Assembly (NCBI RefSeq): GCF_025822765.1
Contig: NZ_JACKUK010000011.1
Location: 62,001 to 126,000 of the forward strand
DNA from: Mycobacterium barrassiae
Lineage (GTDB): Bacteria; Actinomycetota; Actinomycetes; Mycobacteriales; Mycobacteriaceae
Direction of reading: 5' to 3'
Length of the DNA: 64,000 bases
Both the position numbers and the translations under genes were made by a program. Each line of letters starts with the position of its first letter. Within the stretch, counting starts at the first letter, position 1. Shown in pieces: positions 8,401 through 20,812 of the stretch. The notes beneath the pieces are model-generated. The model saw only the letters and a list, made by a program, of their open reading frames with translations. It made no database searches and was not told the origin of the DNA.

Positions 8401-9600
8401 ATCGCGGCGATCAAAACCAGGCTCGGAGCGGGTGTCGGCGTACGCGCGCTGTTCGAGGCGCCCACGGTGGCCCGATTGGGGCCCCACATCCAATCCAGCG
8501 CGGGGCGGTTGGAGCCGTTGCGTGCGGTGGAGCGGCCTGAAGTGGTGCCGTTGTCGTTCGCGCAGAGCCGGTTGTGGTTCATCGACCAACTGCAGGGGCG
8601 CTCATCCGCTTACAACATGCCCTTAGCGGTGCGACTGGTCGGACCCTTGGATGTTGGGGCGTTGGGTGCCGCGTTCGCCGATGTGGTGGAGCGCCATGAG
8701 AGCCTGCGCACGCTGATCACCGCGCCCGACGGAACCCCCCAACAGGTGGTCGCCGAACCTGAACGCGCCGATTTCGGCTGGCGGGTTGTCGATGCCACCG
8801 AGTGGTCGATGAATGAGCTGGAGCGCGAGGTCGAGGCTGCCGCGTTACGCAGTTTTGATTTGTCGGCTGAGGTTCCGTTGCGGGCGTTGGTGTTTCGGGT
8901 TGGTGTGGGTGTTCATGTGTTGGTGGCGGTGGTGCATCATATCGCTGCTGATGGGTGGTCGATTTCGACGTTGACTCGGGATTTGAGTCAGGCGTATGCG
9001 AGTCGGTGTGTGGGTCGGGCGCCGGGGTGGGCGCCGTTGCCGGTGCAGTATGTGGATTACACGTTGTGGCAGCGCGCGAATTTGGGTGATCTCGACGACG
9101 GTGATAGTCCGATCGCGCGGCAGTTGGCGTATTGGATGGGTGCGTTGGCGGGCATGGCTGAGCGGGTGCAGTTGCCCACTGATCGGCCGTATCCGGCGGT
9201 GGCTGATCATCGTGGTGCCGCGGTTGATATTGCGTGGCCGGCTGATCTGCAGGTGCGGGTGGCGGGGTTGGCCCGGGCGCAGGGCGTGACCAGTTTCATG
9301 GTGGTGCAGGCGGGGTTGGCGGTGTTGTTGTCCAAGCTGAGCGCTTGCAGTGATGTGGCGGTGGGGTTCCCGATCGCTGGGCGTGGTGATCCTGCGCTCG
9401 ATGATGTGGTGGGGTTGTTGGTCAACACGTTGGTGTTGCGGGTGGATTTGGGGGGCAATCCCAGCGTTGGCGAGGTGTTGGCGCGGGTGCGGGCGAGCAG
9501 TCTGGCTGCTTATGAGCATCTTGCGGGTGGATTTGGGGGGCAATCCCAGCGTTGGCGAGGTGTTGGCGCGGGTGCGGGCGAGCAGTCTGGCTGCTTATGA
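5419..9600 (+). CDS. NRPS fragment 1: C-A-PCP-C (N-terminal part)
   Basis: The first open piece of the split NRPS is 1,393 codons; the last 28 or so are out-of-frame readthrough of the second repeat copy and end at TGA 9598-9600. C1 has HHMAVDG at about residues 139-145 in place of HHxxxDGWS, and it opens the assembly line, so it may be a starter C domain that accepts an acyl group. A1 has YTSGTTGMPKG and NAYGPTETT; my hand-aligned pocket is D-L-W-T-V-A-A-M-G. PCP1 has FFELGGDSLSAMR. C2 opens with PLSFAQSRLWFIDQL and has HHIAADGWS, the LCL pattern. ATG 5419 is the most upstream usable start; ATG 5431 is the alternative, and neither has a strong ribosome binding site. Confidence 0.85.
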   Translation: MVSEMDLGDRALPLTRGQLGIWLSQESGVVGTAWQLGLLVRIEGAIERHLLERAIRQALQEAEPARSAFFEVDGEVFQQAIDYSNVEVAYQDVTGSADPVEEVRQITSSMQRTPMPLSGPLIKFALFRTGPDQSYMYGLCHHMAVDGAGMALVCRRIATIYSALVAGKPIPPAYFGSIQDLVDCESEYENSAGYLDDLAYWSANLPPEAGLNQPSSQSPHTYDACLPSASVQMNPVVVGRVKELTKELRIRRHSVITAACALLARAWSGQGSEVALDFPVSRRVDPGAKTLPGMFSGVVPLVLKTPPDATVAEFCRHVDARIQELLRHQRFPVHALETERGLRGPGQGANRVAVNFIPGRLTLDLGSARAHATYTNFGPLGHYGLFFLGSSDELFFTTAGAGQPFANFEVGDLAGRLGRLLTAMAADPTARLSSLGVVGGAECDRLSGWGNRSVLWGSGPGSMTVPELFGVQVRSRPEEVALCGGGRSLTYRELDAVSDGLAGVLAGLGARPGVSVGLLVPRSVDAVVALLAVLKSGAAYVPIDPSLPDARIEFLLADAAPIIVVTTDELRSRLGGFAGTVVDVADPPVVDAQVAVRAPATMDIAYVVYTSGTTGMPKGVAVSHHNVTQLMEPLHAGVGAGPGRAWSQLHSLAFDLSVWEICGALLSGGRLLVIPESVAASPPDLHALLCAETVDVLTETPSAVAMLSPQGLAGTTLVVAGEACPTEAVDRWARNRVMVNAYGPTETTMGVAISAPLTPGLGTVPIGSPVSGAALFVLDRWLLPVPAGVVGELYIAGEGVTAGYVGRAGLTASRFVACPFGGAGARMYRSGDLVRWRADGQLEYLGRADEQVKIRGYRIELGEIRAAITELDGVEQAVVIAREDRPGDKRLVGYVTGTANTAEIRRALADRLPSYMVPAAIVTLDAIPLTVNNKLDIRALSAPELQTVERYREPSTPAEEILAGIYAEVLGVDRVGVDDSFFELGGDSLSAMRLIAAIKTRLGAGVGVRALFEAPTVARLGPHIQSSAGRLEPLRAVERPEVVPLSFAQSRLWFIDQLQGRSSAYNMPLAVRLVGPLDVGALGAAFADVVERHESLRTLITAPDGTPQQVVAEPERADFGWRVVDATEWSMNELEREVEAAALRSFDLSAEVPLRALVFRVGVGVHVLVAVVHHIAADGWSISTLTRDLSQAYASRCVGRAPGWAPLPVQYVDYTLWQRANLGDLDDGDSPIARQLAYWMGALAGMAERVQLPTDRPYPAVADHRGAAVDIAWPADLQVRVAGLARAQGVTSFMVVQAGLAVLLSKLSACSDVAVGFPIAGRGDPALDDVVGLLVNTLVLRVDLGGNPSVGEVLARVRASSLAAYEHLAGGFGGQSQRWRGVGAGAGEQSGCL

Positions 9601-9918
9601 GCATCAGGATGTGCCGTTTGAGGTGTTGGTGGAGCGGCTCAATCCGACCCGTAGTTTGGCTCATCATCCGTTGGTGCAGGTGATGTTGGCGTGGCAGAAC
9701 CTGCCGGTGGCTGCTGGTGCTGCGGCGGGGTTGGGGTTGGGTGAGGTTTCTGCTGAGGCGTTGCCGGTGGCCACTCGTACTGCGCGGATGGATTTGTCGT
9801 TTTCACTCTCGGAGCGGTTCAGCGATGACGGCGCTGCTGCCGGTATCACCGGCACGGTGGAATTCCGCACCGATGTCTATGACACCGAAACCATCCAAAC
9901 CCTCATCCACCGATGGCA
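8850..9918 (+). repeat. Long near-identical repeat in the C2 region, copy 1
   Basis: About 1.07 kb, covering the C-terminal two thirds of C2, is nearly identical to 19744-20812 at a constant offset of 10,894 bp. Similarity drops sharply at both ends: upstream of CAGTTTTGATTTG and downstream of CACCGATGGCAAC. Such a tract between modules suggests recent duplication or gene conversion. It is long enough to confuse short-read assembly, and it contains the 85-bp frameshifting insertion. Confidence 0.8.
9437..9605 (+). repeat. 84-bp direct repeat with 1-bp spacer, frameshifting the NRPS (site 1)
   Basis: Bases 9437-9520 and 9522-9605 are identical 84-mers (beginning TGCGGGTGG, ending TATGAGCATC) separated by one T at 9521. 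The net insertion is 85 bp, one base over a multiple of three, so frame 1 runs into TGA at 9598-9600. The C3 domain of the same enzyme, near 12690-12775, has no duplication at the equivalent place. Deleting 85 bp rejoins AAYEH directly to QDVPFEVL, the expected C-domain sequence. Confidence 0.95.
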
Positions 9919-20494: not shown

Positions 20495-20812
20495 GCATCA
20501 GGATGTGCCGTTTGAGGTGTTGGTGGAGCGGCTCAATCCCACTCGGAGTTTGGCTCATCATCCGTTGGTGCAGGTGATGTTGGCGTGGCAGAACCTGCCG
20601 GTGGCTGCTGGTGCTGCGGCGGGGTTGGGGTTGGGTGAGGTTTGTGCTGAGGCGTTGCCGGTGGCCACCCGTACCGCGCGCATGGATTTGTCGTTTTCAC
20701 TTTCGGAGCGTTTCAGCGATGACGGCGCCCCTGCCGGTATCACCGGCACAGTGGAGTTCCGCACCGATGTCTACGACCCCGAAACCATCCAAACCCTCAT
20801 CCACCGATGGCA
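19744..20812 (+). repeat. Long near-identical repeat in the C5 region, copy 2
   Basis: This is the partner of 8850-9918 at offset 10,894 bp, covering most of condensation domain C5. The few differences are scattered single bases, for example GGTGTGGAT against GGTGTGGGT, and CCCC against CTGC near the right end. It carries the same 85-bp insertion at the same relative position, with a different junction base. Confidence 0.8.
20331..20499 (+). repeat. 84-bp direct repeat with 1-bp spacer, frameshifting the NRPS (site 2)
   Basis: Bases 20331-20414 and 20416-20499 are the same 84-mer as at site 1, here separated by an A at 20415. The net insertion is again 85 bp and shifts the frame in condensation domain C5. 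The two sites agree in repeat length and boundaries and differ in the single spacer base (T at site 1, A at site 2). Confidence 0.95.

Follow-up and report, generated by a model that had tools for sequence, protein, structure and literature searches.

False variants have been reported to accumulate at a distance k from contig ends, a pattern that was attributed to unresolved repeats and that partly survives scaffolding (PMC5368935). The available part of that paper counts false variant calls and does not describe duplicated blocks in genes; duplicated blocks are what we describe here, in a nonribosomal peptide synthetase (NRPS) gene of Mycobacterium barrassiae (assembly GCF_025822765.1, here G000; 49 contigs, 5,900,227 bases) that appears interrupted at two sites within a stretch of 64,000 nucleotides (positions 62,001 to 126,000 of the 183,474-bp contig C11, NZ_JACKUK010000011.1; henceforth the window). 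False duplications beside assembly gaps, yielding false gene models, have been described in vertebrate genomes, where they were attributed to heterozygosity and sequencing errors, unlike the present case (PMC9516828). Duplicated overlapping contigs derived from divergent haplotypes are on record for diploid genomes (PMC2864568), whereas here we deal with a fixed overlap of k-1 bases in a haploid genome. Finally, the paper on Meraculous (PMC3158087) notes that adjacent contigs in a scaffold can overlap where the sequence is repetitive, reads being needed to join them; of 985 negative gaps estimated there, most (938) were closed, while in our assembly the overlaps were apparently left open or wrongly filled. 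A literature search on NRPS misassembly with frameshifts found no relevant paper. Judged from the sequence, both duplications in the window are almost certainly scaffolding scars, i.e. assembly artefacts in which the ends of contigs from a k-mer graph were butted and not merged, and the scars belong to a known kind of artefact, the unmerged contig overlap.

At each of the two sites a pair of 84-mers flanks a single base, at 9437–9605 (copies beginning at 9437 and 9522, with T at 9521 between them) and at 20331–20499 (copies beginning at 20331 and 20416, with A at 20415), and all four copies are identical; the description given by the original prediction was exact to the base. Tandem Repeats Finder reported both as perfect 2 x 85-bp duplications (100% match), at 9436–9605 for site 1 and 20331–20500 for site 2; its remaining three rows were low-scoring, one of them being an overlapping reading of site 2. 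The repeated units are offset in phase by one base, since the unit of site 1 is T+84 (the base before the 84-mer) and that of site 2 is 84+A (the base after it). At periods of 15–599 these were the only near-tandem exact repeats of the 64-kb window whose run reached 25 bp, the next longest run being 23 bp.

The sequence common to the two sites extends beyond the duplications themselves. The 124 bp upstream of the join base are exactly the same (9397–9520 = 20291–20414, a maximal exact match at C11:71397–71520 = 82291–82414), and so are the 124 bp downstream of it (9522–9645 = 20416–20539, a maximal exact match at C11:71522–71645 = 82416–82539), while the bases just outside these arms (9396/20290 and 9646/20540) differ between the sites. 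The upstream arms would each be the end of one contig and the downstream arms the start of the next. All four measure 124 bp, which is the usual overlap of contig ends in this assembly, so that the break points are not independent of its k.

This usual overlap was established on a sample of the genome that contained mostly contig ends, together with all of C11 and 20 interior stretches (1,965,376 of 5,900,227 bases; a smaller set of 1,565,376 bases served for the contig-end count and the first join scan). After exclusion of 8 contigs made up entirely of N, 82 ends were usable, and in 65 of them the terminal stretch had a longest exact match of exactly 124 bp to another place in the smaller set; at 53 of the 82 the terminal match was common to another contig terminus. 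A terminal overlap of 124 bp points to a de Bruijn graph with k=125, given that neighbouring contigs have k-1 bases in common, a convention also found in PMC5368935. We scanned the larger sample for near-perfect tandem duplications (period 40–399, with a run covering 0.9 or more of the period) and obtained 23, including the two of the window, 3 of them within 400 kb of interior stretches. In 22 of the 23 there was a one-base spacer with the match boundaries exactly 124 bp off on either side. For the 12 of these with a period of 125 the boundaries follow automatically from the 124-bp run, but for the other 10, both window sites among them, they do not. The spacer was a base in 12 of the 23 duplications and N in 11, i.e. 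at eleven joins inside contigs elsewhere in the genome a 124-bp arm, an N and a second 124-bp arm follow one another. Single Ns were also dispersed off the joins near the ends of C9, C26 and C32, as might happen if an N were put wherever collapsed repeat copies differ in their base.

Suppose that two contig ends with 124-bp arms face each other over a repeat of length L and are separated by one base; the inserted length is then 249 - L. This rule was set down before a further case, not used to form it, was examined. From a 109-bp tandem duplication on C46 it predicted a 140-bp repeat with another copy, and the partner was then found on C16: C46:1086–1209 / 1210 / 1211–1334 matches C16:180785–181033 (minus strand), with arms of 124 + 1 + 124, and each of these two paralogous places carries a 109-bp tandem duplication. 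The pair is an unrelated one and constitutes a second twin scar.

The following course of events would account for the two sites. The assembler would have used a k-mer graph with k=125, whose contigs overlap their neighbours by the 124 terminal bases observed. Two near-identical condensation domains of the NRPS gene would have in common one exact stretch of 164 bp (124+124-84), and in the examined part of the tract probably no other exceeds k. At both sites the graph would have broken at this stretch, with each contig end entering the repeat from its own flank and reaching 124 bp into it. The scaffolder may then have put the ends in the right order but butted them with a one-base gap, leaving the overlap unmerged, whereby 124+1+124 = 249 bases would stand in place of the expected 164, the 85 extra bases being a matter of arithmetic. 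The gap base would have been filled later from opposite sides, as T is the base that precedes the downstream arm (site 1) and A the one that follows the upstream arm (site 2). The original prediction had envisaged that contig ends which overlap had been joined with a 1-bp gap between them, at the edges of a long repeat. The first part holds, given the 124-bp overlaps at 65 of 82 ends, the 11 joins with N, the 124-bp arms and the second twin scar. The long repeat does not: contig ends lying at the edges of such a repeat were considered and rejected, the exact stretch being short (164 bp, by our reckoning) and lying inside a more divergent tract.

This tract is a real paralogous one. It spans 8000–9905 (plus strand) around site 1 and resembles 18894–20799 around site 2. 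Compared in 100-bp steps, the two are 86–99% identical upstream, with a dip to 71–74% at 8700–8899, then 96–99% over 8900–9399 and 92–97% over 9606–9905; past 9905 the identity falls sharply. The pattern looks like the outcome of real gene conversion or module duplication in the past. Outside the scar, the two condensation-domain tracts agree exactly over 121 bp at most, and this run bears no scar; being shorter than k=125, it would not break the graph. A stretch of 164 bp does exceed k, which would explain why there are two scars in this gene and none in its other, more divergent condensation domains. In agreement with the original prediction, which had pointed to an unduplicated condensation domain between the sites, the full domains located there (~11789–13168 and ~16352–17638) are free of such a duplication.

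The gene as written is divided among three open reading frames (ORFs) of the plus strand, 5419–9600, 9350–20494 and 20244–23999, each in a different frame, as expected from two shifts of 85 and as the original prediction had maintained. The first contains two condensation stretches, one adenylation and one carrier domain. The second, in its part 9608–20329, has three adenylation domains, three carrier domains and five condensation-type stretches, and the third, in its part 20502–23996, the end of a condensation domain, an adenylation and a carrier domain and a terminal NAD_binding_4 reductase domain. A reductase domain of this family stands at the C-terminus of two adjoining NRPS frames, 15–3455 and 20502–23996. 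An HSP90-family gene (24018–25958, minus strand) directly adjoins the NRPS gene in convergent orientation. A search for transfer RNA genes found none.

Comparison with related genomes, the check put forward by the original prediction, drew on 106 loci (1,243,341 bp; own-genome loci excluded), some of which overlap or share a genome; 18 of the 30 relatives searched belong to the genus Mycobacterium, and at least 79 named loci are nearly all from Mycobacterium and close genera, records of the same or a very near genome having possibly been omitted. A homologous 73-residue stretch is encoded in 105 of the 106 loci, with 230 hits that are never closer together than 3,069 bp, a distance that corresponds to one NRPS module. 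Hit spacing is too blunt a measure for a short second copy, and therefore a search at the level of a 28-residue block was added, in three frames from ~300 bp before to 400 bp after each hit. It took in 221 of the 230 hits, 7 on the minus strand and 2 ending short of the block being excluded. At none of these 221 homologous places was there a local second copy of the block: the next-best placement had 6–11 of 28 identical residues, against 28/28 and 27/28 by the same measure at the two sites of the window. The first copy of the block in the relatives had 6–23 identical residues (median 18), and the test is hardly informative where this number is lowest. A near-perfect tandem duplication was present in a single one of the 106 loci, L133: it has a period of 100, falls outside the homologous stretch and lies at L133:187–385, near a contig end of Mycolicibacterium pyrenivorans; perhaps it is an artefact of the same kind.

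Several points weigh against taking the duplications as scaffolding scars. The evidence comes from assembled sequence. Seventeen of the 82 contig ends depart from 124 bp: 8 had no match in the sample, 4 gave 123, and one each gave 107, 117, 122, 125 and 126. Contig ends are over-represented in the third of the genome that was sampled. One duplication, at C32:25761, fits on its downstream side only, the predicted upstream boundary lying beside an N. The spacers in the window are bases and not N, and a later step of gap filling or polishing must be assumed. Lastly, among the matches listed, the best-segment protein identity of the relatives is 59–70%; they display the usual form of the domain and not this very gene, and none of the relatives so listed was close enough for a base-by-base view of the same gene site.

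The alternative that survives best accepts the scars as artefacts but holds that they also mask a wrong module count, the 10.9-kb middle piece being a loop in the graph that the real gene may contain in more than one copy. We regard this as unlikely. A repeat at both ends of the middle piece would leave the graph alone unable to count the passes through it, and a single-contig genome of the same genus, G006, does have NRPS copies ~6.33 kb apart; nevertheless, the assembly contains the middle piece a single time, and one occurrence is the straightforward reading. The G006 array lies at C1:180377–221818 (loci L028, L042 and L053), the spacing of its copies amounting to about two modules. A comparison of three of these copies, each over 3,325 bp, gave an identity of 99.85% between alternate copies and of ~93% for either adjacent pair, which would be in keeping with amplification of a ~12.7-kb unit. 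That the synthetase of M. barrassiae really has its 10.9-kb multi-module piece more than once, like the G006 array, has a slim chance of being true; strains could then differ in peptide length through homologous recombination between near-identical condensation domains.

The duplications might otherwise be real, an 85-bp slipped-strand tandem duplication in one condensation domain having been copied to the other by gene conversion, or having arisen twice, so that the gene would be broken at both sites. Each site is indeed a perfect tandem duplication, and the highly similar tract common to both domains makes conversion plausible. The original prediction had required a point change at the junction as well, but with perfect 85-bp repeats none is needed at either site alone, only for copying one site to the other. 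Against a real duplication, the join lies exactly 124 bp inside the common stretch on all four sides, i.e. at the usual contig-end overlap of the assembly, and the unrelated pair on C46 and C16 obeys the same arithmetic with 109 bp. Moreover, N persists at eleven similar joins, the units of the two sites are out of phase by one base and thus not the same unit, and a local second copy is found at none of the tested places in relatives. Taken with these points, a real double lesion is highly improbable. A functional programmed repeat or recoding site inside the gene, which only the precision of the repetition would suggest, is next to impossible, as the same structure recurs in the unrelated pair and at contig-end repeats and is missing at the tested places in relatives.

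This sequence is no ground for recording the NRPS gene as a pseudogene or as carrying a double lesion. At least one further paralogous pair, that of C46 and C16, shows the same error at both of its places, and the 124+1+124 rule offers a simple flag for such scars in this assembly. More generally, the case is a warning that module counts between near-identical NRPS domains are unproven in short-read assemblies, and its use lies in this warning about quality and not in the biology of the organism.
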